Virus record (IMG/VR): IMGVR_UViG_3300025141_000570
Location: 1 to 28,100 of that record
Reading direction: 5' to 3' (one strand)
Origin: a virus
Length of the DNA: 28,100 bases
Shown: positions 1-27,975 of the stretch, piece after piece
Position numbering within the stretch: position 1 is the first letter of the stretch
Layout: every line of letters starts with the position of its first letter
Position numbers and translations under genes: made by a program
The notes under the pieces: generated by a model
What the model was told of the DNA's origin: nothing
The model's database searches: none
The model's input: only the letters and a program-made list of their open reading frames with translations

Positions 1-218
1 TTGGTAAATACTTTGACGGTACTGTGATTGGTGATGTACAAGTAGGAACTTCTCTTACTGCTTATTCTCACGGTGTAGTTACTAGTGGTATTGTAACTGC
101 ACAAGGTGGATTCATTACTGGTTCTGGTACAACAGCAGTCCAAATGTCAATATCTGGAAACAATCTCCTCTTTACTGTTGTGGGAATAGGTACAACCCAC
201 TTAGTTCTCGTACCATAA
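1..218 (+). CDS. C-terminal fragment of a repeat-rich virion protein (5' end outside window)
   Basis: The frame is open from the first bases of the window to the TAA at 216-218, so this is the tail of a larger upstream gene; the in-frame GTG at 24 is not a convincing start. The visible 70 or so residues are Gly/Thr/Val rich and contain the short beta-repeat signatures SGIVTAQGGFITG and GIGTT, ending in HLVLVP. The same GIVTAQ-type repeat occurs in the C-terminal part of the 835-residue protein at 13817-16324, which suggests a fibre or baseplate-associated structural protein. Its position immediately before gp8 fits the baseplate region. The stop codon lies inside the late-promoter box that precedes gp8. 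The specific family cannot be named from this fragment. Confidence 0.75.
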   Translation, partial: GKYFDGTVIGDVQVGTSLTAYSHGVVTSGIVTAQGGFITGSGTTAVQMSISGNNLLFTVVGIGTTHLVLVP

Positions 219-222
219 ATAA
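215..222 (+). promoter_or_regulatory. T4-type late promoter box upstream of gp8
   Basis: ATAAATAA lies 17 nt before the gp8 start and overlaps the stop codon of the preceding gene. It matches the core of the T4 late promoter (TATAAATA), recognised by the gp55 sigma factor with the gp33/gp45 co-activators. By the T4 spacing rule transcription would begin near 227, giving a leader of only about 13 nt, and that leader shows no Shine-Dalgarno sequence. Confidence 0.7.
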
Positions 223-239
223 CTAAAAAATTATAAAAA

Positions 240-1796
240 ATGGCCGCAATTATAACCGACCAAATTAGAATTTTGAACGCAAGGAATTTTCTTGCTGGAA
301 TAACCACGACAGATAATTCGTATTATTCTTTTATTGGTTTACCAAATCCGTCAGACATTCAGAGTGATTGGGATAATAGTCCTCCTGCTCCTATTGACAG
401 TTTTGATGATGAAAATGAATATTGGGAAACAATTATTGCACTGAAGAAGATTAATTCTGGCGATGTTAAACTAGTAATTCCCAAAATTGCTTGGAGATCT
501 GGTAACAAATATGATATGTATCGCCACGATTACAGTGTTTCTAATACTGCTCCAATATCGGGTTCGACTAATTTGTATGGATCGTCATTTTATGTAATGA
601 ATAGTGATTATAGAGTTTATGCTTGTTTGCAAAATGGCACTACACCGGAAACTCCAAATGGAAGTCCTTCTCTTGATGAACCAAAATTTATTGATTTAGA
701 ACCAAGAACGGCAGGTACTAGTGGTGATGGATATGTTTGGAAATATCTTTATACAATTAATCCTTCAGATATTGTAAAATTTGATTCAACTAATTATTTA
801 CCAGTTCCTAGTGATTGGGCAACTTCGGATACATATAGTTCAGTTCGTAATAATGCTGTTGGTGGATCTCTTAAAATTGCCACTATTACGAATAGAGGAG
901 TTGGTCTTGGAACTGCTGGTGTAGTTTATACAAAAGTTCCAATCAATGGAGATGGAACAGGAGCAGAATGTACTGTTTCTATTAATAATGATTCACAAGT
1001 TGACTCTGTGGTTATATCAAATCAAGGTTCTGGATATACGTGGGGAAATATTGATTTAGTTAAAGGTGGAGTTCCAACAGGAATTACCCGACCATCATTT
1101 GATGTTATTATTCCTCCGCAAGGTGGGCATGGATTTGATGTCTACAGAGAATTGGGTTCAAGAAATGTCCTTATGTACTCTAGATTTGAAAATGATATTC
1201 AAAATCCGGATTTTATTACAGGAAATCAAGTTTCAAGAGTTGGTATTATTGAAAATCCTAAAGCATATGGATCTTCAGCAGTTTTATCACTTGATAAAGC
1301 CAGTGCGGTTCAAGCTCTTAGATTAACTGGAATTGGTTATAGTTCAGCAACTTTTGCGGCAGATTCTTTCGTCACTCAAGTAGTTTCTACAGGAACAACT
1401 GCTGTTGCGAGAGTTGTTAATTATGATCAAGCAACGGGAGTATTAAAAGTCTGGCAAGACAGAACAATGTCAGGATTTAATACTGTTGGAGTTGCGATAA
1501 CGAATCCTGAATATGGATTTGTTCAAAATGAGTTCTCTTCATCTCCTGGTAGTGGCGGAGCATTAACTATTATTGGTGGATCAGTTGTCGAAGGATTGTC
1601 AATCGATAATACTTTTACTGGTGTCTCAACCGTAATAAATAATAGGACATACTACCTTGGTCAATCATTTGTAAATGGAATTGCAGATCCCGAAGTCACA
1701 AAAGATTCTGGTAACGTAATTTATGTGGATAATAGACCATCCGTCACGCGGTCTGCCAATCAAAAAGAAGATGTCAAGGTTATATTGCAGTTCTAA
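240..1796 (+). CDS. gp8: Baseplate wedge subunit gp8
   Basis: Structural component of the baseplate wedge, which in T4 binds gp7 and gp10 and helps hold the wedge together. Recognition rests on family blocks: an N-terminal region ending in a PKIAWRSGNKYD block (T4 has a matching IPRRDWG block), SGDGYVWKYLYTI at 161-173, GIIENPKAY at 335-343, and the C-terminal VIYVDNRPSVTRSANQKED block near 493-511, where T4 gp8 has MIYMENRPP. At 518 residues it is much longer than T4 gp8 (334). The extra length sits mainly in two beta-rich insertions, about residues 208-292 (one GSGYT repeat) and 360-465 (a TGTTAVARVV repeat). Only 6 nt separate it from the giant gene downstream, so the two are probably cotranscribed. 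No good Shine-Dalgarno precedes the ATG. Confidence 0.93.
   Translation: MAAIITDQIRILNARNFLAGITTTDNSYYSFIGLPNPSDIQSDWDNSPPAPIDSFDDENEYWETIIALKKINSGDVKLVIPKIAWRSGNKYDMYRHDYSVSNTAPISGSTNLYGSSFYVMNSDYRVYACLQNGTTPETPNGSPSLDEPKFIDLEPRTAGTSGDGYVWKYLYTINPSDIVKFDSTNYLPVPSDWATSDTYSSVRNNAVGGSLKIATITNRGVGLGTAGVVYTKVPINGDGTGAECTVSINNDSQVDSVVISNQGSGYTWGNIDLVKGGVPTGITRPSFDVIIPPQGGHGFDVYRELGSRNVLMYSRFENDIQNPDFITGNQVSRVGIIENPKAYGSSAVLSLDKASAVQALRLTGIGYSSATFAADSFVTQVVSTGTTAVARVVNYDQATGVLKVWQDRTMSGFNTVGVAITNPEYGFVQNEFSSSPGSGGALTIIGGSVVEGLSIDNTFTGVSTVINNRTYYLGQSFVNGIADPEVTKDSGNVIYVDNRPSVTRSANQKEDVKVILQF
1635..1642 (+). promoter_or_regulatory. Late-promoter-like box inside gp8
   Basis: The sense strand reads ATAAATAA within codons for gp8 residues 465-468 (VINN). 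It matches the intergenic late promoter boxes of this window and lies about 160 nt before the giant gene at 1803, which has no room for a promoter in its 6-nt gap. It could supply an internal late promoter for that gene. Equally it may be a chance match in AT-rich coding sequence, since Asn-Asn coded AATAAT readily produces it. Confidence 0.35.
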
Positions 1797-1802
1797 AGAA
1801 TT

Positions 1803-4800
1803 ATGTCTCAAATAACAAATCTAAACGTATCACCTTATTATGATGATTTTGATCCCACTGACAATTTTCATAGAGTGTTATTTAAGCCTGGATACCCCGT
1901 CCAGGCTAGAGAATTAACATCTCTTCAATCTATTTTACAAAATCAAATAGAAAGATTTGGACAACATTTCTTTAAGGAAGGTGCGAAAGTAATACCAGGT
2001 AATACTGCTTATAATCAAAATTATCATGCTATTGAACTCAATAATACTTATCAGGGAGTTCCAATAGATGCTTATACTGATCAATTAATAGGATCAAAAA
2101 TTACTGGTAAGACAACTGGAGTAACTGCTGTTGTTGATAGTGTTTTATTATCATCCGATTCGGAGAGAGGAAATACAACATTATATGTAACTTATATTGC
2201 TTCAAGTAATCAAGATAATACAACTTCTGTATTTGCCAGTGGCGAATCATTGAGTTCAGAAGTTCAAATTTTAAGTGGTCTCCTTGGTAATAGTTCATTT
2301 GCTCCTGGAGAAACTTTTGCAATTACTGCTGCTACGAATGCATCTTCAGTAGGATCTTCTTTCTCAGTCATTAATGGTGTCTATTTTATTAGAGGAAATT
2401 TTGTAAATGTAGATGATGAGACTTTAGTTCTTGATCAATATTCTAATACTCCCAGTTATAGAATAGGTTTTTATATTAACGAAGAAATTATTACTTCTGA
2501 TCAAGATGAATCTTTAACTGATAATTCAACCGGATTTAATAATTATGCTGCTCCAGGTGCTGATAGACTCAGACTATCGGTATCGCTTTTCAAAAAACCT
2601 TTAACTAATTTAAATGACCAAAATTTCATTGAATTAGCAGTTGTTGAAAATGGTATTTTAAGAACAAAAAGTGTAGAAACTCAATATTCTGTAGTTAGTG
2701 ATGAATTAGCAAGAAGAACATATGATGAATCGGGTCATTATGTTATAACTCCTTTTGATGTTAAGGTTAGAGAATCCCTGAATGATAATATGGGTAATAA
2801 TGGAGTTTTGGAGGAAGGACAACTTACTTCTGCAGGGACTCCGGTAGATGATGATCTAGCATTATATCAAATTTCTCCAGGAAAGGCATTTGTTAAAGGG
2901 TATGAAATTGAAACCATTACTTCGACTAATGCAGATTGTCCAAAACCAAGAGTCACAAAAACTATTGAAGATGAAGCATTATTTTATAATACTGGATCTA
3001 CAATAAGATTGAATAGAGTTTTTGGAACTCCTCTTGTAGGAATAGGTAATACATATGTTCTTAGTTTAAGAGATTCTAGAGTAGGATCCGCACAAACTAC
3101 ACCAGCAGGAAATGAAATTGGACTAGCAAGAGTTTATGATTTTAAATTAGAATCTGGTTCATATAGTCTTAAAAATGATGATTTAAATGAGTGGAACATT
3201 GCTCTTTATGATGTTCAGACTATTACACAGGTTACATTAAATGAGAATATTACATTAACCACACCAGTTGTTGTAAAAGGAAAAAATAGTGATGCGACTG
3301 CATATCTTAAAGATAGTGTAAGTGGTACTAATGTTCTTGATCTTTATGATAAATCAGGAACTTTTATGCTGAATGAGGCATTTGAGTTTAATGGAACTGA
3401 TAATGGAAGAGTTGCAATTGCTATTACTAGTTATGGACTATCTGATGTTTCATCTGTACATGGAAATATTGGTGGAGTTGTTGGCGTAGGAACTACATTT
3501 AGTGCTAATGTTATTCAACATAATAAATTTACGGTTGGTGTTGCAACTTTCACTGGTGTTGATAATAATGGAATAAGTACAGTAACTTCTTCATCTGATG
3601 GTTTTCCTAATCGACTTTATGAAGGTAATTTACTTGAGTTTAATGGTATCGTATATCTTGGTGGTGGTGCGCTTGCCTACTCGATTCCTTGGCGTACCAG
3701 AGTTGTAAGTGTAGGGTCTAGTACAGTAACAGTTACAGGCGTTACTACTGTTAGTGGTCTTTATGATGGTGGAATTCCAAGTTCGCCATTCCAGGTGCGA
3801 GATCTTAAAGTACTACAGTCAAATTTAGAGTCTTCTAGTGATAATACACTTTATAGTGCACTTCCAAGAGCAAATATCTCTACAGTAAATCTTGAAGATT
3901 CTTATATCATAATAAGAAAATCTGAGACAGTAACTATTGCAGGGAATCAATTAGCAACACCTATTACTGCGGGTGTAAATGAAACTTTCCAACCATTTGA
4001 TGAAGAAAGATATTCATTGATTAGGTCCGATGGATCTACAGAACTATTAACTGCAGATAAATTTGGATTTAGTGCTGCTTCAACATCACTTCAAATTTAT
4101 AATTTAGGAGCAGCTGATGGTGCAGCAAGACTAACATATACGTTGAAGAAAACTAAACCCAAAGCAAAGAAAAAGAGAAAAAATAGAGTTAATACAGTTA
4201 TAATTGATAAATCCACTCTTGAAGGATCTGGTTCTGGTGATGGAACTCTTGATGATGGATTAACATATGGTAGTTATCCATATGGAACAAGAGTTCAAGA
4301 TGATAAAATTTCACTAAATCTTGCTGATCTTGTTGAAGTTCATGGCATTTATGAATCAACAGATATTACAGAACCTTCTGCGCCTACGGTTATATTGTCT
4401 TCTATTTCTGGACCTGCAGGTAGTACATCAGATCTCATACTTGGTGAAAAAATTATAGGTCAGAATAGTAAAGCAATTGGTATTGTTGCAGCAAAACTTA
4501 CAGATTCTCAAGTTGCATTTATTCCCAAAAATTCATATAATTTAAGAGAAGGTGAAGTTGTAAAATTTGAAGAATCTAAAATTCAAGCAACAGTTTCTCA
4601 ATTAAATGAATCTAGTTTTAATATTTCAAAACATTATAGTTATACTGCTGGACAGCGTGGATCTTTCTATGACTATGGATCTATAAACAGAAAAGATGAT
4701 TTTGAAGCACCTACAAAGCAGTTGAAAATTTATTTTTCAAATGGATATTATGATTCCAGCGATGATGGAGATATTACAACAGTTGATTCATACACCGAAT

Positions 4801-7800
4801 CATTTGATTATACTACTGACATTAGATTTATAAATGGAGAGAGATTAACTGATATTATTGACATTAGACCGAAAGTTTCTACTTATACAGTTGCTGCAGA
4901 CGCAAGGTCTCCGTTTGAGTTTTATGGTAGAACATTTAATGAAGCAGGAAATTCTGCTGCAAATATTTTAGCATCAGACGAATCTCTTAATTTCACATAT
5001 TCATTCTATCTTGCAAGAATAGATAGAATTTATCTCACTAAGGATGGAAAATTCCAAATTCAATATGGAGATTCGGCAGAAATTCCAGATTTGCCCGTAC
5101 CAATTGATAATGCAATTGAAATTGCAAGAATAAATCTTCCTCCATATCTTTATCAACCTTCTCAAGCTTCAATTGATTTTATGGAGCATAAGAGATATAG
5201 AATGGTCGATATTAGACAACTTGAGAAGAGAATTAAAAATCTTGAATATTATACATCATTAAGTTTACTTGAAACAAACACTGCTAATATGTTTGTTGCT
5301 GATAGTCAAGGTTTGAATAGATTTAAATCTGGATTCTTTGTTGATAACTTTACTAATGCAAGAACTCAAGAGAATGAACTTCCTTATAAAAATAGTATTG
5401 ATATTGGAAATAAAACATTAAAACCTCAACATTATACAAATGCAATTGATCTTGTTCTAGGTCCTGTTGTTAATGTTGATCCTACAGCGGATTTAGCATT
5501 CAGGTCTCCCGAAGGTATTAATATAAGAAAAACTTCTGATGTAATTACTCTTGATTATGCTGAAGTTGAATGGTTATCTCAAAATTTTGCTACTAGAACT
5601 GAAAGTGTAACACCATTTTTGGTAAGTTTTTGGCAAGGTTCGCTTACATTAACACCTGCCACAGATACTTGGATTGATACTACAAGATTAGAAGCAAAGA
5701 TTATTAAAGCTGAAGGTGATTATAATGAAACCATGAGAGATATGGTTGAAAATAATAATGTTGATCCACAAACTGGATTTGCTCCTACTATTTGGAATGC
5801 ATGGGAAACCAATTGGACGGGAAGTGATGTTACGACATCCACAAGAATCAGAACGATTAGGAGTGGTAGAGTACCATCTCGTCGTGGTCCAGGTGGTACG
5901 AGTCAGAGAAGGACAATTAATTATACACTGACAAATACAGTTATTCAAGAAACGTTAAGAGAACAAAAAGATACTGGTGTAAGATCAAGAACTGGAAGTA
6001 GACTTAGTGTTACTGAACAATGGGATAATACTTCTGTTGGAGATAGAGTTGTAAGTAGAGATGCTGTTCCTTATATGAGGTCCAGAAATATTCAATTTGT
6101 TAATAAGAAAGTTAAACCACTTACAAAAATGTTTGCTTTCTTTGATGGAATGAATGTAACTAGATTCTGTGTTCCAAAACTTCTTGAAATTTCTATGACT
6201 TCTGGCACATTTGATGTTGGAGAAACTGTAATTGGAACTGCACAGCGAATGGGTGTTGGACCTAATTGGGAAGCATCAAGTCCAAAAATAACATTCAGAA
6301 CTGCACGATCAAATCATAAGTCTGGTGAATATAATTTTCCTACAACCACATATAAGCAAAACCCATATAATTCACGGCCACTTGCTGAATCTTATTCATC
6401 ATCATCAACAACTTTGAATATTGATACATTCTCATTACAAGAACAGGCACAAGGTGAGTATTTTGGTTGGGTTGAACCAGGAATGATTCTTGTTGGGCAA
6501 ACAAGTGGTGCTCAAGCAACAATTACAGACCATAGATTGATTTCTGATATAGCTGCAGACTTAAATGGTAGTTTCTTTATTCCTAATCCGAATATTGAGA
6601 CAAATCCAAAATTTGAAGCGGGAACAAAAGTACTTACTTTTGTTAATGATAGCGCAAACAATCAAGAAACTGCGACTACAATTTCTGAAGAAGGATACAA
6701 TGCAACAGGAACTCTTGAAACAGTACAGGAAAATATTATTTCTGTGAGGAATGCAAGAGTTCAAAATAAACTTAAATTTGAAGATCACGCAGTTAATAGA
6801 ACAACTGGAATGCAAGTTATTCAGACTAGAACTCTGAGTAGTCATACATCACGTCATAGTATGACTCAATATTATGATCCTTTGGCGCAATCATTCTTAG
6901 TTGATGAAGAAGGTGGTATCTTTATTACAAGATGTGACATATTCTTTAGGAGTAAGGATGATGATAATATTCCAGTAACTCTTCAGATTAGAACAATGAA
7001 GGAGGGAACACCAACACAAAAGGTTTTACCATTCTCCGAAATTATTTTAAATCCAGATGATATTACTACTTCTGGAGATGGATCTGTTGCGACACCATTT
7101 GTATTTGATGCTCCTGTTTATCTTGACGGAAATGATGAATATGCTATTTGTGTAGCATCAAATTCTACTAAGTATAGCGTTTATATTTCTAGAATTGGTG
7201 AAAATGATCTCTTAACTGATGCATTTATCTCAAACCAACCATATCTTGGTTCACTCTTTAAATCACAGAATGCTTCTACTTGGGAACCCAGTCAATGGGA
7301 AGACTTGAAGTTTGTTCTTTATAGAGCAGATTTTGTTGATAAAGGTACAGTTGAGTTTTATAATCCTGCATTAAGTGAAGGAAATGGACAAATTCCAACA
7401 TTGATGGATGATTCATTGTCTATGAATTCAAGAAAAGTAAGAGTTGCACTTTCCACAACAATTAATGATCCAGATCTTTCTGTTGGTAATATTATTAGTC
7501 AGACAGGAAATAATGCAACTGGTAATTATGTTGGAGCTGCTGGTAGTGCGACAGGAACTTTAAATGTTATTAATGTTGGAATTGGATACACTGGTCCATT
7601 TACTTATCCTGGAGTTAATTTAACAACACTTACTGGAGATGGTAGTAATGCAACTGCTGATATTCAAGTTAAAATTGATGGAACAGTTGGATTTGCAACT
7701 ATTTTAGCAGGTGGATCTGGATATTTGATCGGTGATACTCTTGGCGTAACTACTATTGGAAGTAATAATGTTGGTACTGCATTACGACTATCTGTCACAT

Positions 7801-9326
7801 CAATTGGAAGTACTAATGAATTTATTATTAATAATGTTCAAGGAAACTTTATTTCTGTTGGATCGGCATCTACTGTTCAATTTATTAATGGATCAGGAAT
7901 AACAACAGCATTAAATTGGGCAGGTAGTGGTTCAACAATGTCTAATATGTCAGATGTTGGTGGTGTTCAATTTAATAATCTTTATGTTGTAAATGATGGA
8001 TTACATATAAAAGTAAATCATAAAAATCACGGAATGTATCATGAAGATAATTTGGTTACAATATCTGGTGTTGAATCAGACTTCAAACCAACGAAATTAA
8101 CTTCACCATATGCTGCAACTAATAATGGACCTTTATCAGTTGAGTCGGTTGCTAGTTTCCAATCATTTGAAAATGTTGGTGTTGGTACTACAAATGCTGG
8201 TTATTTGCGTATCGGTGATGAAATTATTGGATTCACAACAGCATCTTCAAATGCTATTGGTGGAATAATTACTAGAGGAAATACTCCAAAAGATTATCCA
8301 ACAGGAACACCAGTTTATAAGTATGAATTGAATGGAATCTCACTTAAGAGAATTAACAAGACGCACGAATTAAGTGACGTAACAATTTCAGATGCGATCA
8401 ATTTTGATTCTTATAATATTAAAGTTGGTATGAGTACTGGTGGTGTTGATAGAACTCCTTCTTCTGGATGGCCAAAACTTTATATAAGTAATACTAAGTC
8501 TGGTGGCGGAAGAAATATTAAGGCAACTCAAAATATGCCTTATGAAATTATTACACCAATGGTCCAGAATGTTACTGTCCCCGGAACAACCTTAAGTGGT
8601 ATGATTAGGACAGTAAGTGGAAAGAGTATTAGTGGAAATGAGATTCCTTTTATAGATAAAGGATGGGAAACTATTACATTAAATCAACAAAATTATGTTG
8701 ATTCTCCTAGAATTATTTGTTCCGAAGTTAATCAGAACAATAAATTAACTGCTCTTCCTGGTAGTAAATCATTCCAATTGGGTGTTATATTAGAATCTTC
8801 TGATACAAAATTATCTCCGGTAATTGATACTCAAAGAGTTAATACTATTTTAACATCAAGTAGAGTTAATAGTGTAATTGAAAATTATGCTACAGATAAG
8901 AGAGCAAATTCTTTAACTAATGATCCGACTGCAATGCAGTATATTTCTAAAGAAATTAATCTTGAAAATTCTGCAACTTCATTACAAATTATGATAAATG
9001 CAAATATGAATACCTATACAGATATTCGTGCTTTCTATGCAATAAGTGAGAAGGATAACTTTAATCCAGTATTTACACCTTTCCCTGGATATGATAATCT
9101 AGATAATAGAGGTGAGATGATCAAACTTGAGGATAGCAGTGGTCGTTCTGATGTGTATGTTTCACTTCCTTCTGAAGGTTCTATGGCGGATGCTTGGTCG
9201 GAATATACATTTAGTTCAAAAGAGTTGCCTTCATTTAGAGCATATCGAATTAAATTTGTATTAACTTCAACCAGTCAAGTATATGCTCCTTCAGTTAAGG
9301 ATTTAAGAGTAATAGCACTTGCTTAA
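1803..9326 (+). CDS. Giant virion structural protein (DUF4815-like N-terminus), baseplate/fibre region
   Basis: A 2507-residue protein in the slot that in T4 holds genes 9-12 and wac. The N-terminus (NVSPYYDDFDPTDNFHRVLF, then PGYPVQARELTSLQ) is the signature I associate, from memory, with the DUF4815 family of marine T4-like virion proteins. Further landmarks: a very basic linker at 782-795 (KKTKPKAKKKRKNR) followed by a Gly/Ser/Asp-rich stretch; a helix-rich block near 1120-1165 (MEHKRYRMVDIRQLEKRI); FDVGET at 1470-1475; YDPLAQSF near 1690; two glycine-rich repeats with GIGYTGP at 1926-1932 and GGSGY ending at 1974; and a GDEII...RG domain near 2115-2180 resembling the C-terminal domain of gp15. 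No transmembrane segment or signal peptide is seen. Likely roles are a baseplate peripheral scaffold or fibre attachment. The gene is intact, with 2 nt before the next one. Exact function unknown. Confidence 0.88.
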   Translation: MSQITNLNVSPYYDDFDPTDNFHRVLFKPGYPVQARELTSLQSILQNQIERFGQHFFKEGAKVIPGNTAYNQNYHAIELNNTYQGVPIDAYTDQLIGSKITGKTTGVTAVVDSVLLSSDSERGNTTLYVTYIASSNQDNTTSVFASGESLSSEVQILSGLLGNSSFAPGETFAITAATNASSVGSSFSVINGVYFIRGNFVNVDDETLVLDQYSNTPSYRIGFYINEEIITSDQDESLTDNSTGFNNYAAPGADRLRLSVSLFKKPLTNLNDQNFIELAVVENGILRTKSVETQYSVVSDELARRTYDESGHYVITPFDVKVRESLNDNMGNNGVLEEGQLTSAGTPVDDDLALYQISPGKAFVKGYEIETITSTNADCPKPRVTKTIEDEALFYNTGSTIRLNRVFGTPLVGIGNTYVLSLRDSRVGSAQTTPAGNEIGLARVYDFKLESGSYSLKNDDLNEWNIALYDVQTITQVTLNENITLTTPVVVKGKNSDATAYLKDSVSGTNVLDLYDKSGTFMLNEAFEFNGTDNGRVAIAITSYGLSDVSSVHGNIGGVVGVGTTFSANVIQHNKFTVGVATFTGVDNNGISTVTSSSDGFPNRLYEGNLLEFNGIVYLGGGALAYSIPWRTRVVSVGSSTVTVTGVTTVSGLYDGGIPSSPFQVRDLKVLQSNLESSSDNTLYSALPRANISTVNLEDSYIIIRKSETVTIAGNQLATPITAGVNETFQPFDEERYSLIRSDGSTELLTADKFGFSAASTSLQIYNLGAADGAARLTYTLKKTKPKAKKKRKNRVNTVIIDKSTLEGSGSGDGTLDDGLTYGSYPYGTRVQDDKISLNLADLVEVHGIYESTDITEPSAPTVILSSISGPAGSTSDLILGEKIIGQNSKAIGIVAAKLTDSQVAFIPKNSYNLREGEVVKFEESKIQATVSQLNESSFNISKHYSYTAGQRGSFYDYGSINRKDDFEAPTKQLKIYFSNGYYDSSDDGDITTVDSYTESFDYTTDIRFINGERLTDIIDIRPKVSTYTVAADARSPFEFYGRTFNEAGNSAANILASDESLNFTYSFYLARIDRIYLTKDGKFQIQYGDSAEIPDLPVPIDNAIEIARINLPPYLYQPSQASIDFMEHKRYRMVDIRQLEKRIKNLEYYTSLSLLETNTANMFVADSQGLNRFKSGFFVDNFTNARTQENELPYKNSIDIGNKTLKPQHYTNAIDLVLGPVVNVDPTADLAFRSPEGINIRKTSDVITLDYAEVEWLSQNFATRTESVTPFLVSFWQGSLTLTPATDTWIDTTRLEAKIIKAEGDYNETMRDMVENNNVDPQTGFAPTIWNAWETNWTGSDVTTSTRIRTIRSGRVPSRRGPGGTSQRRTINYTLTNTVIQETLREQKDTGVRSRTGSRLSVTEQWDNTSVGDRVVSRDAVPYMRSRNIQFVNKKVKPLTKMFAFFDGMNVTRFCVPKLLEISMTSGTFDVGETVIGTAQRMGVGPNWEASSPKITFRTARSNHKSGEYNFPTTTYKQNPYNSRPLAESYSSSSTTLNIDTFSLQEQAQGEYFGWVEPGMILVGQTSGAQATITDHRLISDIAADLNGSFFIPNPNIETNPKFEAGTKVLTFVNDSANNQETATTISEEGYNATGTLETVQENIISVRNARVQNKLKFEDHAVNRTTGMQVIQTRTLSSHTSRHSMTQYYDPLAQSFLVDEEGGIFITRCDIFFRSKDDDNIPVTLQIRTMKEGTPTQKVLPFSEIILNPDDITTSGDGSVATPFVFDAPVYLDGNDEYAICVASNSTKYSVYISRIGENDLLTDAFISNQPYLGSLFKSQNASTWEPSQWEDLKFVLYRADFVDKGTVEFYNPALSEGNGQIPTLMDDSLSMNSRKVRVALSTTINDPDLSVGNIISQTGNNATGNYVGAAGSATGTLNVINVGIGYTGPFTYPGVNLTTLTGDGSNATADIQVKIDGTVGFATILAGGSGYLIGDTLGVTTIGSNNVGTALRLSVTSIGSTNEFIINNVQGNFISVGSASTVQFINGSGITTALNWAGSGSTMSNMSDVGGVQFNNLYVVNDGLHIKVNHKNHGMYHEDNLVTISGVESDFKPTKLTSPYAATNNGPLSVESVASFQSFENVGVGTTNAGYLRIGDEIIGFTTASSNAIGGIITRGNTPKDYPTGTPVYKYELNGISLKRINKTHELSDVTISDAINFDSYNIKVGMSTGGVDRTPSSGWPKLYISNTKSGGGRNIKATQNMPYEIITPMVQNVTVPGTTLSGMIRTVSGKSISGNEIPFIDKGWETITLNQQNYVDSPRIICSEVNQNNKLTALPGSKSFQLGVILESSDTKLSPVIDTQRVNTILTSSRVNSVIENYATDKRANSLTNDPTAMQYISKEINLENSATSLQIMINANMNTYTDIRAFYAISEKDNFNPVFTPFPGYDNLDNRGEMIKLEDSSGRSDVYVSLPSEGSMADAWSEYTFSSKELPSFRAYRIKFVLTSTSQVYAPSVKDLRVIALA

Positions 9327-9328
9327 TT

Positions 9329-9559
9329 ATGGAATACGTAAAAGTAAAGGATCACTCAAATTTGATGAGAGATCCTCAAACGCAAAGCATTGTAAACACC
9401 AATCAATCTGCTTATGATGAATATATTGCGAGACGTGATGCTAACAAAGAAACGGATCAAAAATCTCAAAGTATGGAAGAAGATCTTGCTAACTTAAAAG
9501 GTGAGATCACTGAAATTAAGGATTTATTACACCAGCTTGTTCAGTCTAAATATCAATAA
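9329..9559 (+). CDS. Small acidic coiled-coil protein, probable virion-associated
   Basis: 76 residues starting MEYVKVKDHSNLMRDPQT. The N-terminal half contains a NTNQSAYDEYIARR block and the C-terminal part (about 48-72) is a heptad-like helix (LANLKGEITEIKDLLHQLV), consistent with a short oligomerising coiled coil. It starts 2 nt after the giant gene's stop and ends 14 nt before gp13, so it is translated within the same late operon. I recall similar small proteins next to neck genes in marine T4-like phages, with no assigned function. The position matches T4 wac (fibritin), but it is far shorter and shows no clear similarity. A small neck or baseplate accessory is plausible but unproven. 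Confidence 0.65.
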   Translation: MEYVKVKDHSNLMRDPQTQSIVNTNQSAYDEYIARRDANKETDQKSQSMEEDLANLKGEITEIKDLLHQLVQSKYQ

Positions 9560-9573
9560 AGGAAAGTGTGTAA

Positions 9574-10425
9574 ATGGCGCAACCATCTACCAGAACAGAA
9601 TTAGTTGATTATTGTAAAAGAAAATTGGGTGCTCCAGTTTTAGAGATCAACGTTGCGGATGAGCAAATTGATGATCTGATGGATGATGCTATCCAATTTT
9701 TTCAAGAAAGACATTTTGATGGTGTATATCAAACTTTTTATAAGTATCAAGTAACGAAAGATGATATTGATAGAGGAAGAGCAAATGGCGGAAGTAATGG
9801 TAAAATAGGAATATCTACAGTTACTGCAGATGCTACAATTGTAGGTTCTGCTACTACTCAATTTTCTTATGAAGAAAATAGCAATTTCTTACAGATTCCA
9901 CCGAATGTAATAGGAGTTACTAAGTTATTCCATTTTGATGGAAGTAACACCATGACTAATAATATGTTCAGTGTGAAGTATCAGTTATTCTTAAATGATA
10001 TCTACTATTGGGGATCTACTGAACTCTTATCCTATGCTATGGTTAAGACATATCTTGAAGATTTGGATTTCTTATTAACCACACAGAAGCAAATTAGATT
10101 TAATAAAAGACAAGATAGACTTTATCTTGATATTGATTGGTCTACTTTAACCGTTGATGATTATTTGATTATTGATTGTTATGCAACATTAGATCCAAAT
10201 GATTATGCTAAAGTATGGAATGATTCATTTATAAAACCATATTTGACTGCATTGATTAAGAAGCAGTGGGGTCAAAATATGATGAAATTCCAAGGAGTAA
10301 AACTTCCGGGTGGAATCGAATTAAATGGAAGACAAATGTATGATGATGCTCAAAGAGATTTAGATTCCATCATGGAAAAAATGTCCAACACTTATGAACT
10401 ACCACCTCTTGATATGATAGGATAA
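9574..10425 (+). CDS. gp13: Neck protein gp13
   Basis: Head-completion/neck protein which, with gp14, forms the collar at the portal vertex that accepts the tail after packaging. 283 residues (T4 gp13 is 309). Recognisable parts are the N-terminal helical block LVDYCKRKLGAPVLEINV, DEQIDDLMDDAIQFFQERHF with its following YQTFYKYQVT segment, and a middle and C-terminal part including DPNDYAKVWNDSFIKPYLTA and KKQWGQNMMKFQGV. The start is supported by an AAGGAA ribosome binding site at 9559-9564, just after the preceding stop. It overlaps gp14 by one base (TAATG), implying translational coupling of the two neck proteins. Confidence 0.95.
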   Translation: MAQPSTRTELVDYCKRKLGAPVLEINVADEQIDDLMDDAIQFFQERHFDGVYQTFYKYQVTKDDIDRGRANGGSNGKIGISTVTADATIVGSATTQFSYEENSNFLQIPPNVIGVTKLFHFDGSNTMTNNMFSVKYQLFLNDIYYWGSTELLSYAMVKTYLEDLDFLLTTQKQIRFNKRQDRLYLDIDWSTLTVDDYLIIDCYATLDPNDYAKVWNDSFIKPYLTALIKKQWGQNMMKFQGVKLPGGIELNGRQMYDDAQRDLDSIMEKMSNTYELPPLDMIG

Positions 10426-11930
10426 TGGTATTAAATTCATTTTTCCTACAAGGTTCTCCTGGAGAGCAAAATTTAGTACAAGATTTAATCAACGAACAGT
10501 TGAGGATGTATGGTGTTGAAGTACATTATATGCCCAGAAAATATATAACAGAGAAAACAGTAATACAAGAAGTTATAGCATCAAAATTTGATAATGCATA
10601 TCCTATAGAAGCATATCTTAATAATTATGAAGGATATGGAGATCAAACTACACTACTATCAAAGTTTGGTATTCAGGCAATTAATGAAGTAACTTTAACA
10701 ATTTCAAAAGATAGATTTGAATCATATATAAGTCCACTTTCAGATGGACAAGATGGTATTAAGATAATGACCAGACCTGCAGAAGGTGATTTAATTTATT
10801 TTCCTTTAGGCGATAGATTATTTGAAATTAAATATGTTGAACATTCTCAACCATTTTTCCAACTTAAAAAGAATTATATTTACACATTAAAATGTGAACT
10901 CTTTAGATATGAGAATGAAGTTATTGATACAGGTGTTGGAGTTATTGATGATGTTCTTGCCGGAGATAGTTCTAGCGGTAGTTATGGTGGCGGTGGCGGA
11001 TATATAGACTCAGAAGGTGAAGGTAGCGGTACTAAGGATATTGTTGCGGGAACGGTTGCTTCTAAAACATTGACTATGGTTGGTCTTGGTACAGGAGCAG
11101 AAGCATATACTGGATATGTTGCTGATGGTGCTATTAGATTTATTACGGTAACTAATCGTGGTGGTGGATATTCACTTACTCCACGAGTTGCAATATCATC
11201 TGCTCCTTCAACAGGAGTCAATGGTATTGGTACAGCAACTATGATTGGTGGTGTTGTTGCATGTAATTTGAATGTTGATCCTTCAAACAAATCAGTACAA
11301 AGTGTTGAGATATTAAATCCAGGTATGGGTTATACAGGAGCACCTGGAGTAAGATTTGTTGCACCACCCACAGGTGGAGCAGGTGCTGCTGGAACAGCGA
11401 CAATTGGTGATGGTGTAGTTGGTATTATTACCATAACTAATGGTGGTTCTGGATATACAGTGGCATCTAAACCACTAGTAACCTTTACTGGTTCTGCTAC
11501 TGTATCCGCCGCAGCAACAGTGGTTGTTAGTTCTGCGGGAACAATTAGTCAAATTCGTCTTACAAATTCTGGACTTGGGTACACTACACCACCAACAATC
11601 ACATTTGCTAATCCACCAGTTACAGGATCAGGATCTTATTCATTCAACGAAATAGTAACTGGACAGACTTCTGGTGTTACTGCCAGAGTTGTTAAGTGGA
11701 CAGAATCAACAAGAAGATTAGAAGTTTCAAATTATACTGGCAATTTTGATGTTGGAGAAACAATTGTTGGAACAGCGTCTTCCGCAAGTTATGAGTTATT
11801 CTCTTCAGCTCATACTAGTGCTGATACTGGTTCTGGTACTGTTGGTGGGTTTGGTGTAAATGATGAAATAGAAGAAGCAGCAGATGGTATAATCGATTTT
11901 AGCGAAATAAATCCCTTTGGGATGCCTTGA
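10425..11930 (+). CDS. gp14: Neck protein gp14 with inserted glycine-rich repeat domain
   Basis: Neck/collar protein working with gp13 to seal the filled head and dock the tail. Residues 1-180 match the T4 family: EQLRMYGVEVHYMPRKY, AYLNNYEGYGDQ, FGIQAINEVTLTIS and EGDLIYFPLGDRLFEI all have counterparts in T4 gp14. The last 20 or so residues (IIDFSEINPFGMP) correspond to the conserved acidic tail. Between them, about 181-475, lies an insertion that makes this protein 501 residues against 256 in T4: a Gly/Ser linker, four GGGY/GYT-type repeats with tyrosines at 249, 303, 344 and 386, then a GQTSGVTARVV...FDVGETIVGT module (412-450). The same module types occur in gp8 and the giant protein. The insertion probably forms a beta-rich decoration on the collar. 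The start overlaps the gp13 stop. Confidence 0.95.
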   Translation: MVLNSFFLQGSPGEQNLVQDLINEQLRMYGVEVHYMPRKYITEKTVIQEVIASKFDNAYPIEAYLNNYEGYGDQTTLLSKFGIQAINEVTLTISKDRFESYISPLSDGQDGIKIMTRPAEGDLIYFPLGDRLFEIKYVEHSQPFFQLKKNYIYTLKCELFRYENEVIDTGVGVIDDVLAGDSSSGSYGGGGGYIDSEGEGSGTKDIVAGTVASKTLTMVGLGTGAEAYTGYVADGAIRFITVTNRGGGYSLTPRVAISSAPSTGVNGIGTATMIGGVVACNLNVDPSNKSVQSVEILNPGMGYTGAPGVRFVAPPTGGAGAAGTATIGDGVVGIITITNGGSGYTVASKPLVTFTGSATVSAAATVVVSSAGTISQIRLTNSGLGYTTPPTITFANPPVTGSGSYSFNEIVTGQTSGVTARVVKWTESTRRLEVSNYTGNFDVGETIVGTASSASYELFSSAHTSADTGSGTVGGFGVNDEIEEAADGIIDFSEINPFGMP

Positions 11931-13445: not shown

Positions 13446-13805
13446 ATGACAGTAAAGTCCGGTATTCATTCCGCGATACCATCAATTAATATTACAATAC
13501 CTCAAGGTGCTGATTACAATGAGGAATTTTTCTATACCTACAATGATGGTTCAGCAGTAGATCTTACTGGTTATGCAGTAACAGCTTCTTTAAGAAAACA
13601 TGTTAGTGCTGCTGCGTCTACAGGATTTAGTTATGTCGGTATTGCTTCTTCTGCAGGTGGTAAAGTTAAACTTGAAATGAGTGCCGCTGTTACTGGTATT
13701 GTAACTGAAGGTCGATATTTTTATGACGTGAAGATGACATCTGGTAATGGTACTGTAATAAGATTGGTAGAAGGAAACGCCTTAGTCCTTGCCGGTATAT
13801 CCTAG
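13446..13805 (+). CDS. Small beta-rich hypothetical protein, possible fibre or head accessory
   Basis: 119 residues with alternating polar and hydrophobic stretches suggesting a single beta-sandwich domain: INITIPQGADYNEEFFYTY, VDLTGYAVTASLRKH, GKVKLEMSAAVTGIV and GRYFYDVKMTSG in order. This pattern (a 'qGady...f.y', 'dLtGyav.a.lRk', 'g.Y.YDv' scaffold) occurs in many small phage structural or fibre-associated domains, but I cannot name a family. It lies 8 nt after gp16 and 11 nt before the long fibre-like gene, so it probably acts with that protein, for example as a connector or chaperone. It contains no catalytic motif or signal peptide. Function unknown. Confidence 0.65.
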   Translation: MTVKSGIHSAIPSINITIPQGADYNEEFFYTYNDGSAVDLTGYAVTASLRKHVSAAASTGFSYVGIASSAGGKVKLEMSAAVTGIVTEGRYFYDVKMTSGNGTVIRLVEGNALVLAGIS

Positions 13806-13808
13806 GAG
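13804..13808 (+). promoter_or_regulatory. Ribosome binding site overlapping a stop codon, supporting a GTG start
   Basis: AGGAG at 13804-13808 begins inside the TAG of the upstream gene and lies 8 nt before GTG at 13817. Its strength and spacing argue that the 835-residue protein starts with GTG (GTG GCA TTA) rather than at a later ATG. Confidence 0.65.
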
Positions 13809-13816
13809 AAATATAA

Positions 13817-16324
13817 GTGGCATTAAAAAAACCCTCAGAACTTTTTAATAAAATTGAAATCAATCCTTTTGAAGAGGTGAAAAGTTCTTATAAAGAGAAT
13901 AATGTCTCTACTATTGATGAAGCTTTTAGTGCATTTCAAACAAATGTAAATCACATTCAATCGTTAAATGATTTTACACAGACATTTGGAACTTTTAGTA
14001 AGAATGTAGAGAAAATACAGGATATATCAGAAGAAATTGAAGAAATAAAGGAAGATATTGATTCTCTTGCTACAAAAGAGAATTTAGATGATGCTATGAC
14101 AGCACATCTACTTTATGTTAAGGATAGTATTGCTAAAGTAGAAGAAGGTATTGAAACTTTAAATACAAAGTCTATTTTCAAAATTAAAAATGACTTTTCA
14201 TCTTTAGCAGAAAAAGTAAATAATTTCTTAAGTGTTGATGCATTACAATATAAGAATGATCTTTTAAGAAGTGAGAATAGAGTTGATTCTAATTTTGGAA
14301 AATTAAAGGATCTTTTAATTTCTGAATCTGAAGATCTTAGTGCAAAAGTTGAAGAAAGAGTAGATTCTATTAAAGAAGAAGTTGGTGGAATTAATTCAAA
14401 ATCTTTAGATAAGATAAGAAGTGAAATCTTTTCCATGTCGGAAGATTTAGATAATGTAATTAAAAAAGAAATTCCTAGGTATAAGACATTCTTTGCAGAA
14501 ACTGAATTAAAGACAGAAAAATCTTTAAACTTTTTTACCGAAGAATTTAAGAATAAAATTCAAACTGTTGAGAAGGATTATAAAGAAAAGGTAAGTAATC
14601 TGAATGATACAGTTCAGGAATTTATTAATAAAGAAATTCCAAAATATAAGAATTTAATTGTTGAAAATAAACTTGAATCTGAAACTCTAATCAATACTCT
14701 TAAAGAAACTTTACAGAAAGATGTAAAATTAATAAATGATCAATTATCATTAGTAACAGATGATTTGGAAAGTGGATTTGCAGAATCTTCTGAGAAGGTA
14801 GATAAAGGACTTTCTAATCTTCAAACAGTAATTGATGAATCAAAATCCAATATTAATGATATTTCATCATTATATGAAAATCTTTATAAGGATTTTAAAA
14901 AGAGAGAAATTCATGAGGATAAGAAACTAAATGAATTCAAATATAATATTGAAACCATCTCTAATAAGGTAGATACTCATGCTATAGATTATGATACCAA
15001 ATTGAGAAATGAAGTTGGATTACTTGAAGAAGGTGTTGAGTCACTTGAAGTGGATGTAACTAATAAGATTAAAGATTTAAAACTTGTTATTTCTATAAAT
15101 GAAGAGCACATTAAAAAGCAAGATAAGTATATTGATGAGATAAAAAAATCTGTTAAGAAAACTGTTAGGTCATTAGATATTGATCTCTTTGAGAAAAAGA
15201 ATAAGAGTTTAGTTAAAAAGATTCTTTATATTGAAAATGTATTAGAGAGTTTTAAGGAAAAAACTCTTACAGAAGGTCTTTTAGATGTTCCACCACAAAC
15301 AAATAATTCCGATTCATTAACTCCTTTAGATCAAAAATACGCAACACTTGATGATTTACAGAATCATTATAAGATTTTTATCAATAGGATTCAACAGCAA
15401 TTGTCTACACTTGGTGGTGGTGGAGAAACACAACTTCAGTATCTTGATGATATTGTTGGTGTAGCAACAAATCTTTCCGCATATGATGGAATGTATCTAC
15501 AGGTTGATACTTCCGGACCTGCAGGAAAGAAATTTAAGTTTGGTGAGATTACTGTAGGTGCTGCTGGAACTTGGAGATACGATACTGCTGGTATTAGCAC
15601 TTCTAAAAATATTGGTATTGGTACAACATCTTCAGCTGATACAGCATTACTTGTTGTAGGTGATGCATGGATGTCTGGTAATTTATCTGTTGCAGGAACG
15701 GTTACTCATAATGATGTACAAAATCTTGAATCCATTGGTATTGTTACTGCACAGACTGGAATTCGTGTTATTACTGGTGGTATTGATGTAAGTGCTGGTA
15801 TTGTCACTATACCTTCTACAATAGTTGGTGCTGCTGTTACAACCGATTCGCAAGGAGTAAGAGTTGCTGGTGTTGTAACTGCTACTAGTTTTGTAGGTGA
15901 TGGAGCATTTAATAATGTTAATATAACTGGTATTACTACTTTAGGATCTGATAATGGAATAGGTGCTGTTACGGTTGGAGTAGGAACTACAGCACTTTTG
16001 GTTGATGGTAACGCAAGAATAACTGGTATTCTTTCTGTTGGTCAAGGAACTATTACTTTAAATGGAAGCGATAATAAGTTAAATGTTGGAACAGGAATTA
16101 CTTTAAATGCTGCTACTGGTAAGATTGAAGCACCAGAAATTATAACGTCTGGAACGACGGGTGCATTCTATCCTCCAGTAATGAATACCACACAGAGAAA
16201 TGCACTTACTGTTACCGCAGGTGCTATGGTTTTCAATACTACAGATACTAAACTACAATTTTATGATGGAAGTGCATGGCAAGATGCAAGTGGCGTCTCT
16301 ATTGGACTTGCTATAGCAATCTAA
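13817..16324 (+). CDS. Long coiled-coil plus beta-repeat fibre-like structural protein
   Basis: 835 residues. About 1-483 is almost entirely charged helix rich in Lys, Glu, Asp and Asn (for example IQDISEEIEEIKEDIDSLA), typical of a long coiled-coil rod. Within it a KEIP(R/K)YK motif recurs, with tyrosines at 145, 222 and 277; spacings of 77 and 55 residues are multiples of 11. After a Pro/Asn linker (about 490-500) and a GGGGE hinge, residues 540-783 carry glycine/threonine beta repeats such as GIGTTSSADTALLVVGDA, GIVTAQTGIRVITGG and VGVGTTALLVDGNARITG. A terminal domain (784-825, YPPVMNTTQRNALTVTAGAM, then KLQFYDGSAWQD) is the kind found at the tips of marine phage fibres. It starts with GTG after AGGAG. 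Likely a whisker or fibre attached to the neck or tail; this role is inferred from architecture and position. Confidence 0.8.
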   Translation: MALKKPSELFNKIEINPFEEVKSSYKENNVSTIDEAFSAFQTNVNHIQSLNDFTQTFGTFSKNVEKIQDISEEIEEIKEDIDSLATKENLDDAMTAHLLYVKDSIAKVEEGIETLNTKSIFKIKNDFSSLAEKVNNFLSVDALQYKNDLLRSENRVDSNFGKLKDLLISESEDLSAKVEERVDSIKEEVGGINSKSLDKIRSEIFSMSEDLDNVIKKEIPRYKTFFAETELKTEKSLNFFTEEFKNKIQTVEKDYKEKVSNLNDTVQEFINKEIPKYKNLIVENKLESETLINTLKETLQKDVKLINDQLSLVTDDLESGFAESSEKVDKGLSNLQTVIDESKSNINDISSLYENLYKDFKKREIHEDKKLNEFKYNIETISNKVDTHAIDYDTKLRNEVGLLEEGVESLEVDVTNKIKDLKLVISINEEHIKKQDKYIDEIKKSVKKTVRSLDIDLFEKKNKSLVKKILYIENVLESFKEKTLTEGLLDVPPQTNNSDSLTPLDQKYATLDDLQNHYKIFINRIQQQLSTLGGGGETQLQYLDDIVGVATNLSAYDGMYLQVDTSGPAGKKFKFGEITVGAAGTWRYDTAGISTSKNIGIGTTSSADTALLVVGDAWMSGNLSVAGTVTHNDVQNLESIGIVTAQTGIRVITGGIDVSAGIVTIPSTIVGAAVTTDSQGVRVAGVVTATSFVGDGAFNNVNITGITTLGSDNGIGAVTVGVGTTALLVDGNARITGILSVGQGTITLNGSDNKLNVGTGITLNAATGKIEAPEIITSGTTGAFYPPVMNTTQRNALTVTAGAMVFNTTDTKLQFYDGSAWQDASGVSIGLAIAI

Positions 16325-16328
16325 AAAC

Positions 16329-16339
16329 CTAAATATAAG
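16329..16339 (+). promoter_or_regulatory. Possible variant late promoter (CTAAATATAAG)
   Basis: The 36-nt gap before the 121-residue ORF contains CTAAATATAAG, one base off the TATAAATA core. Its spacing to the ATG at 16361 is like the other late promoters of this window. It is weaker evidence than the exact boxes. Confidence 0.35.
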
Positions 16340-16360
16340 TAGGAATACTAATTATTTGCA

Positions 16361-16726
16361 ATGAAAGAGTCTGTACAAATTGAAGACCTAGCAGGAAATC
16401 TTGCTTATGAGTTTATTGACTTAATTAAACCTGAACCAATTAAAATTCCTCAATCACGCATTAATTTTATTGAACAAGACATAAAAGAGCAGTTGGAAGA
16501 AGCATCAAGAATTCCAACCAAAACTGGAAATATTATCGTTGTTAATTTAGGTTGGCGCGGAAAAAACTATTGCATAAGAATCTTTTTCCCCAACCTTAAA
16601 AAACCATCACGCAGAGAAGTTCAGGATCAGTTGCAGAAAATCTATCCTGGCGCTAAACTCTGGAACTACCAAGTATCGGACTATGAACCCGGAGAACCAC
16701 TCCTCCAAGTGGGAGGAAGAAGTTAA
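16361..16726 (+). CDS. Conserved-type hypothetical protein upstream of gp17
   Basis: 121 residues, mixed alpha/beta, without recognisable catalytic residues. Visible parts: an N-terminal amphipathic helix (EDLAGNLAYEFIDLIKPEPI), a charged helix (FIEQDIKEQLEEASRI, about 37-52), a beta strand NIIVVNLGWRGKNYCIRIFF (57-76), a basic helix KKPSRREVQDQLQKIYPGAK and a C-terminal GEPLLQVGGRS. I recall small proteins in this position in marine T4-like phages with no assigned role. It sits in the island between the terminase genes and overlaps the 59-residue ORF by 44 nt. A packaging or fibre-assembly accessory is possible. Function unknown. Confidence 0.75.
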   Translation: MKESVQIEDLAGNLAYEFIDLIKPEPIKIPQSRINFIEQDIKEQLEEASRIPTKTGNIIVVNLGWRGKNYCIRIFFPNLKKPSRREVQDQLQKIYPGAKLWNYQVSDYEPGEPLLQVGGRS

Positions 16727-20852: not shown

Positions 20853-21428
20853 ATGGCAGTAGGACACAGAATTGAAGATTTTAAGGCAACACTAACGGGC
20901 GGCGGTGCACGCCCCAATTTATTTGAAATCGAAATGACTGAAGGTAACGCCAGCATAGGATTACCTGCAGAAAATACAAAGATGTTGTGTAAAGCAGCTT
21001 CTTTGCCCGCATCAAACATTGCACCTATTGAAATTCCTTTTAGAGGAAGAACATTTAAAGTTGCTGGAGACAGAACTTTCGATACTTGGACAATTACTAT
21101 AATTAATGACACCAATTTTGAAATTCGCACAGCGATGGAAAACTGGATGCAAAAGATTGGTCAGTATGCTGATGCTAGTGGCGACACGAATCCAGCTGAC
21201 TATCAAATTGATGCAACCGTTAAACAGCTTTCAAGACTAGCATCAGCTGCAGGAGCAGTTGATGGAACTGGTTTAGAATCTGTTTATGAATATACCTTCT
21301 ATGGTATTTTCCCAACCAACATTAGTGCAATTGACCTTTCTTATGATACTGGAGATTCGATTGAAGAATTTACAGTTGAATTCCAAGTTCAATACTGGGA
21401 ACCAAAACCCGGAAATAATCAAGGTTAA
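20853..21428 (+). CDS. gp19: Tail tube protein gp19
   Basis: Inner tube subunit that polymerises in hexameric rings on the baseplate hub and forms the DNA channel. 191 residues (T4 163). Visible family pattern: an N-terminal strand region with GGGARPNLFEIEM, CKAASLPASNIAPIEIPFRG, the core GRTFKVAGDRTFDTWTITII (about 65-84), DTNFEIRTAMENWMQKIG, and the C-terminal YEYTFYGIFPTNISAIDL plus EEFTVEFQVQYWEP strands. The additional length is mainly around KQLSRLASAAGAVDGTGLES (about 124-143). It has a consensus late promoter and the strongest ribosome binding site in the window, consistent with its abundance in virions. Confidence 0.97.
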   Translation: MAVGHRIEDFKATLTGGGARPNLFEIEMTEGNASIGLPAENTKMLCKAASLPASNIAPIEIPFRGRTFKVAGDRTFDTWTITIINDTNFEIRTAMENWMQKIGQYADASGDTNPADYQIDATVKQLSRLASAAGAVDGTGLESVYEYTFYGIFPTNISAIDLSYDTGDSIEEFTVEFQVQYWEPKPGNNQG

Positions 21429-27417: not shown

Positions 27418-27975
27418 ATGTCCAGACAAATTGATAATAGGAATTTTTTATCTCCTACCGGATTTAAATTTGCTTTAGATAAAGCTCCTAAAGTTGCATT
27501 TTTTTGTAACCAAGCAAATATTCCTTCTCTAGACCTTGGAGTAGCAATTCAACCTACCTACTTAAAAGATATTGAACAACCAGGTGATAAAGTTAAATTT
27601 GGTGATTTAAGATTAAGATTTATGGTTGATGAAAATCTTAAAAATTATATAGAAATTCAAACTTGGATAAGAGGATTGGGTTATCCAGAATCTGGTGAAG
27701 ACATAAAAAGACTAGCATCTGGAAATAAAGAACTAGATATGAAATCTAGATCTTGGGCAAATGTTTTTTCTGATGGAACACTTCAGATTTTAACTAGTGC
27801 TATGGTTGCTAAATTTCAAGTAAGATTTAGACAAATGTGGCCTTATTCCTTGACAACAGTGACTTTTGATGCTACAGCTAATGATATACAATACTTTACA
27901 GCAGATGTAAGTTTTAAATATTTGATATATGAATTAACTGATTTAGACGGAAACCCATTATGTAGTTGTGATTAA
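27418..27975 (+). CDS. gp3: Tail-tube-fold protein in the gp3 position (tail completion/sheath stabiliser candidate)
   Basis: 185 residues between gp23 and uvsY, the position where marine T4-like phages carry the protein annotated as gp3, which terminates and stabilises the tail. Visible parts: NFLSPTGFKFALDKAPKVAF (9-28), the strand-rich PGDKVKFGDLRLRFMVDENL (55-74) with NYIEIQTWIRGLG after it, and VTFDATANDIQYFTADVSFK (148-167) near the end, followed by YLIYEL. The FxVDE..NY..I..W pattern and the final TADVSFKY strand resemble the tail-tube/gp54 family (T4 gp54 has FRMDSEASNYRAMQDWV and TTFDVTFAYRV), so a tube-initiator-like role is an alternative. The C-terminus has a CSC motif. It lies behind a terminator and ends directly at the uvsY ATG. 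Identity as gp3 rests mainly on synteny. Confidence 0.6.
   Translation: MSRQIDNRNFLSPTGFKFALDKAPKVAFFCNQANIPSLDLGVAIQPTYLKDIEQPGDKVKFGDLRLRFMVDENLKNYIEIQTWIRGLGYPESGEDIKRLASGNKELDMKSRSWANVFSDGTLQILTSAMVAKFQVRFRQMWPYSLTTVTFDATANDIQYFTADVSFKYLIYELTDLDGNPLCSCD

Follow-up and report, generated by a model that had tools for sequence, protein, structure and literature searches.

The stretch of DNA analysed here (the window) spans an entire virus record (28,100 bases, GC content 35.5%), and its + strand carries a T4-like structural operon. The operon starts with the end of an open reading frame (ORF; 3-218), followed by gp8, a giant gene, a 76-aa ORF, gp13, gp14, gp15 and gp16, and continues after gp16 with fibre genes, gp17, sheath, tube, portal, protease, scaffold and capsid. 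The baseplate wedge subunit gp8 (518 aa, 240-1796) was recognized by phrog_438 (E=4e-160) and Pfam Phage-Gp8. The giant (2507 aa, 1803-9326) consists of 2507 codons read in one frame from an ATG, with 0 internal stops, and was assigned as a VrlC/DUF4815 baseplate protein by a full-length phrog_358 match, Pfam DUF4815 and identity to a protein of phage S-SM2. It is followed by a 76-aa coiled-coil partner protein (9329-9559; phrog_473, virion structural protein; profile E=5.5e-26) and by the gp13 neck protein (head-tail adaptor Ad2; 9574-10425; phrog_211, E=9e-49). The initial annotation, which placed one intact 7.5-kb gene and a 76-residue ORF between gp8 and gp13, is confirmed by these two ORFs, and its reference to T4, in which genes 9, 10, 11 and 12 and wac occupy this interval, is also correct.

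Several other features of the operon were recorded. The gp14 protein (10425-11930) has 501 aa versus 256 in T4, and its C-terminal half matches profiles of giant baseplate proteins (phrog_708, phrog_701 and phrog_2885). The gp16-gp17 interval (13446-16726) holds three ORFs of 119, 835 and 121 aa, the first matching phrog_3304 ('L-shaped tail fiber protein assembly') and the second being a fibre gene with a GTG start. The ORF behind the major capsid gene (27418-27975) matches the tail-tube family phrog_45 (E=9e-38), as does the tube gene (20853-21428); in S-SM2, a gene just behind the capsid gene is named gp3.

Family membership and the solved relative of the giant protein

By hmmscan, the giant matched phrog_358 with 2097 bits (query 1-2507, profile 1-2055 of 2056) and Pfam DUF4815 with 209 bits against a curated cut-off of 30. 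The DUF4815 match falls into three stretches (residues ~12-79, 188-412 and 1058-1295); thus, the DUF4815-like N-terminus of the initial annotation is present, but the similarity is not confined to it. A tblastn search matched 1540 phage records; in 385 of them, a single location accounted for 80% or more of the query. The nearest relatives over the full length were found in Bellamy (56.2% identity) and S-SM2 (55.9%), and the S-SM2 homologue is annotated 'VrlC protein' and sits in the gp8-gp13 slot as here. Among the 80 top IMG/VR loci, the majority align with the giant across its entire length, and when 64 relatives were extracted at the coordinates of their matches, 62 had no internal stops or unknown bases. 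The breadth of these phage records, the whole-length loci and the intact relatives together indicate that the giant is real beyond chance. More distant relatives occur in Ackermannviridae, Herelleviridae and other myoviruses, and the length of the open frame is graded, from 1152 residues in Kayvirus through 1601-1644 in Ackermannviridae and pf16 and 1934 in Menderavirus to 2396-2762 in Kyanoviridae. The gene order gp8, VrlC, small coiled-coil gene and (gp13) is present here. The giant belongs, as a marine representative of cyanophage type, to a family of phage tail-tip proteins that was known before (VrlC/DUF4815), and in Kyanoviridae the gp8-gp13 slot is normally filled by VrlC. In the Synechococcus elongatus genome, used as a control, DUF4815 was also detected above the cut-off, possibly within a phage-tail-like element.

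The small partner gene is almost invariant. A homologue lies directly behind VrlC in 196 of the 199 loci with enough sequence, and also behind VrlC in the Ackermannviridae (Vibrio VP-1 and Kuttervirus). The protein carries an RDPxT-like motif near its N-terminus and a coiled-coil-like C-terminus, and a 52-aa ORF with an RDPYS motif occupies the corresponding place in Kayvirus. The comparison of the Herelleviridae 52-aa ORF with the 76-aa ORF by HMM was not significant, and no PDB match linked the two; a sequence link was not accepted, the RDPxS/T motif and the coil, judged by eye, being all that they share. The VrlC homologues of Deep-Blue, Vp4 and A511 are also reported to be accompanied by a small gene, which is termed a chaperone (PMC11406892). 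The 76-aa coiled-coil protein is probably a conserved partner or assembly factor of VrlC.

The sole PDB relative identified by sequence is the baseplate protein ORF65/DUF4815 of Staphylococcus phage phi812, also called TmpF (9EUF; 15 entries in all). With phmmer, it aligned collinearly with the giant in four segments from query residue 6 to 1853 (E=1e-48), and profile searches with each half of the giant against ORF65 gave E~1e-44. ORF117 of Kayvirus GH15 is this same protein, with 1152 aa. Structure prediction by overlapping segments with a structural search, as proposed in the initial annotation, gave the same answer: AlphaFold models of aa 121-1320 (pLDDT 76) and aa 1308-2507 (pLDDT 80), based on alignments of 54 sequences, both had phi812 baseplate chains as their top three PDB matches in Foldseek, with no other match at E<=0.001, and the C-terminal model also retrieved other DUF4815/VrlC proteins among predicted viral structures. 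In VIA-align, the C-terminal model aligned with 9euf_0 (Z 13.3, 416 residues, 5.6 A; TmpF 682-1151), and the N-terminal model with 9eui_Q (Z 15.4, 335 residues), the latter with a large rmsd of 22.1 A over several domains (21.7-22.1 A for this model). Global TM-scores of the models to TmpF were low, probably owing to an unreliable arrangement of domains in the monomer model.

The location of this relative also bears on a different assignment, in which the giant would be a neck or whisker protein in place of fibritin. In its favour are the label 'putative neck protein' borne by the homologue in P-TIM68 (an annotation only) and the position of the giant next to gp13, but the solved homologue is located in the baseplate and no fibritin match was found, which makes a neck function extremely improbable.

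Domain architecture and a polymorphic module

A five-way alignment and structural comparison divide the giant into conserved parts and insertions. The N-terminal DUF4815 part (aa 1-400; 1803-3002) matches phi812 ORF65/TmpF 4-257, and conservation across the family peaks within it at aa 1-50 (73% identity). This part is followed by an insertion of several beta domains (aa 401-1057; 3003-4973), which was delimited by the five-way alignment and modelled mostly with pLDDT >75, and whose counterpart in phi812 TmpF comprises just ~140 residues. Within this insertion, VIA alignment identified a small beta domain like T4 gp7 domain V (aa 859-936; 4377-4610). The C-terminal half of DUF4815 (aa 1058-1295; 4974-5687), defined by the Pfam stretch, has M, D, R and E positions that are invariant across 54 sequences and a conserved 24-residue helix (aa 1134-1157, within KRYRMVDIRQLEKRIKNLEYYTSLSLLE) that aligns with TmpF ~465-490 and may be a trimer element. 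The helix-rich block described in the initial annotation is not seen in the two models, which are overwhelmingly beta and have one conserved helix at ~1134-1157.

Further downstream lies a lectin-like beta domain (aa 1693-1853, corresponding to TmpF 789-952; 6879-7361), which accounts for 87 bits of the 9EUF phmmer match and was also recovered by VIA; residues 811-959 of Deep-Blue Gp176 have likewise been reported as lectin-like (PMC11406892). This domain is well conserved between a Staphylococcus phage and a cyanophage in the five-way alignment, and, judging from this sequence conservation, a structural role appears more likely for it than host-specific binding. The next segment is an insertion that includes glycine-rich repeats and a GDEII/RG module (aa 1854-2370; 7362-8912) that is mostly absent from TmpF. 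The GDEII/RG module (aa ~2092-2182) resembles tail-tip domains of lambda gpJ and JBD30 (VIA Z 6.3-7.7, 66-75 residues, 2.2-2.5 A). The protein ends with a jelly-roll-like domain (aa 2371-2507; 8913-9323) that aligns with TmpF 1046-1152 and terminates in RVIALA. The five-way alignment attributes most of the extra length of the cyanophage protein to the insertions spanning aa ~401-1057 and ~1854-2370; a further, smaller insertion lies near 1460-1580.

A polymorphic module (aa ~542-680; 3425-3839) was detected within the first insertion by comparing the window with the related loci L005, L272 and L273. Between the window and L005, 137 of the 415 bases of the module differ (70% nucleotide and 52% amino acid identity), compared with ~1% of codons in the rest of the VrlC gene and a small second cluster of differences at aa ~1349-1369. 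The flanks are near-identical DNA, the edges of the block are sharp, and the phages that carry the two alleles are nearly identical in other respects. L272 and L273, which come from other metagenomes, carry the L005 allele, the former with a 4-residue insertion. A small beta barrel predicted at aa ~572-673 (model residues 452-553) overlaps the module, and the corresponding region ranks, in two clades, with the more rapidly changing parts of the protein (1.7-2.3 times the average). Hypermutation of the DGR type was rejected because the changes show no strong adenine bias and affect all codon positions; the variation looks like allelic exchange by recombination, with the window allele coming from one contig that may be a chimeric assembly. 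A donor of the variable block was not found.

Relationship to T4 baseplate and fibre proteins

In the initial annotation, the giant was regarded as a possible substitute for T4 gp9, gp10, gp11, gp12 and fibritin. Such a fused or composite protein would fit its position in the same gp8-gp13 interval, and would also fit the failure to detect the T4 proteins elsewhere: gp11 was not found in 15 VrlC genomes, gp12 and fibritin were undetectable in the four kyanovirids tested and, apart from one weak fibritin match in GH15, in all seven VrlC genomes tested, and gp10 was represented in the VrlC genomes tested by N-terminal pieces only. On the other hand, searches of the giant itself with Pfam and PHROGs, with the T4 proteins as reference, revealed no gp9, gp10, gp11, gp12 or fibritin domains. 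The gp9/10 N-terminal domain PF07880 had no match at E up to 1, PF08677 (gp11) had no match, and no short-fibre, collar or fibritin domains were found by profile. Both VrlC half-alignments gave probabilities of 0-2% with each T4 protein in hhalign, like the shuffled sequences that served as negative controls, the positive controls (TmpF and Kuttervirus VrlC) reaching 98.8-100%; on this ground, a gp9-gp12/wac fusion was rejected. Folds of T4 gp9-12 or fibritin were also not seen among the PDB matches listed, where a missing entry does not exclude a fold.

Moreover, the premise that gp9 is missing turned out to be an effect of the window's left edge. The ORF cut there (3-218), recognized through comparison with L005, is the end (C-terminal 71 residues) of a gp9/gp10-N-type baseplate protein gene. 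Window 1-2000 is 99.9% identical to L005 4875-6874, and L005 extends 4.9 kb further left, where the complete gene (304 aa, L005 4175-5089) lies between a gp7-type giant and gp8. The N-terminus of the 304-aa protein resembles T4 gp10 (42% over 67 aa, E=3e-11) and T4 gp9 (37.5% over 48 residues), and the protein matches PF07880 and phrog_677. The cut ORF also resembles the end of an S-B05 protein located in the gp7-gp8 interval. With this gene left of gp8 in L005, loss of gp9 in this clade was rejected. In S-RIM8 and S-SM1, gp9 is likewise close to VrlC and left of gp8, and 287 phage records, mostly of cyanophages, match at least 80% of this gp9. The gp9/10 N-terminal domain was not found in the Bellamy and S-SM2 genomes, and Bellamy matches the C-terminal part only of the gp9 profile, at two other places. 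The result that would refute the initial annotation by its own account, a gp9-gp12 homologue at another place in the genome, was thus obtained for a gp9/gp10-type protein; gp11, gp12, wac and the rest of gp10 were undetectable in the VrlC genomes tested.

Two additional observations concern this region. L005 3807-4172 contains a shorter copy of the gp9/gp10-N start that ends after 121 residues (PF07880, E=8e-9) and forms with 4175-5089 an apparent tandem partial duplication, either real or an assembly effect. In addition, 75 bp of the window fibre gene (15824-15898) are 84% identical to L005 4805-4879 in the gp9-like gene, possibly a shared fibre module.

Since the same phage population has a gp9/gp10-N protein, gp9 or gp9/gp10-N occurs alongside VrlC in S-SM1, S-RIM8, P-TIM68, S-SSM7 and S-B05, and the profile comparisons with T4 proteins are no better than those with shuffled sequences, it is highly improbable that the giant is a composite of the five T4 proteins. 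Baseplate periphery, the location implied by the initial annotation, is by contrast very probable given the homology to phi812 ORF65/TmpF and A511 Gp106; none of the results pointed to the fibre-attachment role also suggested there.

A replacement of a different T4 protein, gp7, by VrlC has been proposed (PMC7029224). In its favour, the small domain at aa 859-936 looks like domain V of T4 gp7, aligning with 5iv5_BJ and 9f4a_A0 (chains called gp7 by inference from their length and numbering) at Z 7.7-7.9 over 70 residues and 1.9-2.0 A in VIA; values of Z <8 may arise by chance. However, a separate gp7-type giant (phrog_2885) is present upstream of gp8 in Bellamy and in L005 (E=7e-250 in the latter), S-SM2 has a giant annotated gp7, and T4 gp7 ~724-758 can be traced in the upstream giants of Bellamy, S-SM2 and S-RIM8. 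A GxxIxGxTSGAxAxV-like motif appears three times within VrlC, which also speaks against this assignment, and the gp7 profile did not match VrlC in hhalign. Substitution of gp7 by VrlC is thus very unlikely.

A less direct relationship to T4 might also be considered, in which VrlC and the 76-aa protein perform the job of the T4 gp10-gp11-gp12 tail pin and short fibre via non-homologous parts. DUF4815 was present in all 16 chosen genomes and absent from T4, gp11 showed the opposite pattern in the 15 of those genomes tested, and VrlC is at the same locus as T4 gp10-gp11-gp12. The genomes were, however, picked by the presence of VrlC, profiles could miss distant relatives of gp10-gp12, and other cyanophage fibre genes in the gp16-gp17 interval could be the short fibres. 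Such an exchange of modules is a possible reading that can be held only tentatively. A stronger version, that the inserted barrel at aa ~542-680, which is absent from the Gram-positive homologue and swapped by recombination, sets which host surface is accepted, and that VrlC and its 76-aa partner form a replaceable host-contact unit in place of the T4 tail pin and short fibre, appears unlikely.

Proposed role and comparison with known systems

The preferred reading is that the giant is VrlC, a peripheral baseplate protein homologous to phi812 TmpF and A511 Gp106, which quite probably forms trimers at the wedge ends, contributes an outer layer and swings toward the cell. In Listeria phage A511, two Gp106 trimers are attached to the proximal part of each tail fibre, the pyramids that they form give the baseplate its double-layered look, and these pyramids turn toward the cell wall once the receptor-binding protein has bound (PMC9863714, PMC11406892). 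VrlC had earlier been predicted to make the double-layered baseplates of T4-like phages (PMC6630229, PMC7029224). By analogy, trimers of the cyanophage protein would stand out from the wedge ends, forming a second, outer baseplate layer, and, after fibre binding, would swing cellward, anchor the phage and help to trigger contraction; the trimers, pyramids and reorientation are carried over to cyanophage VrlC by inference from the literature on its homologues. The lectin-like and jelly-roll domains lie in the C-terminal half of VrlC. In cyanophages, the shared scaffold has probably grown from ~1150 to ~2400-2760 residues via inserted beta domains; the one at aa ~542-680 appears to be swapped between alleles and may make contact with the host.

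These findings remove the claim of a composite replacement of gp9-gp12 and tie one of the largest cyanophage structural proteins to a solved baseplate component. They also reveal a gp9/gp10-type protein encoded in the gp7-gp8 interval. VrlC is still listed under 'unknown function' in PHROGs and as 'virulence-associated' in many records. The giant is ordinary in its family membership, its place at the baseplate periphery is well supported, and the proposed replacement of a gp9-type protein is wrong; what merits further work is the module with two alleles and the small gene that almost always accompanies VrlC.

Compared with known systems, the giant shares with T4 gp9, gp10, gp11, gp12 and fibritin the genomic interval and no sequence-profile similarity. 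Gp106 of A511, Gp176 of Deep-Blue and Gp120 of Vp4 belong to the VrlC family by published annotation (PMC11406892); they differ from the giant in host and size and are likened to it through published descriptions. TmpF of phi812 (PDB 9EUF, 9EUI and 9EUJ) resembles the giant in the order of its DUF4815, lectin-like and C-terminal domains, but it comes from a phage of a Gram-positive host, has 1152 aa versus 2507 and lacks the greater part of the two large insertions (aa ~401-1057 and ~1854-2370). The VrlC proteins of the Ackermannviridae phages Kuttervirus barely (a phage name) and Vibrio VP-1 share the family (hhalign 100%), the small partner gene and the IALA ending, whereas they have ~1612-1622 aa and insertions smaller than those of the cyanophage giant. 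The closest system is the VrlC of Kyanoviridae (S-SM2 SSM2_099 and Bellamy gp113; T4-LIKE GC 400; phrog_358), with 56% identity over 2507 residues. Unlike the window phage, S-SM2 and Bellamy lack an ORF in the gp7-gp8 interval, where the window phage has the gp9/gp10-N gene, and have two extra small ORFs ahead of gp13; common to all three are a VrlC gene between gp8 and a small coiled-coil gene and gp13 downstream.
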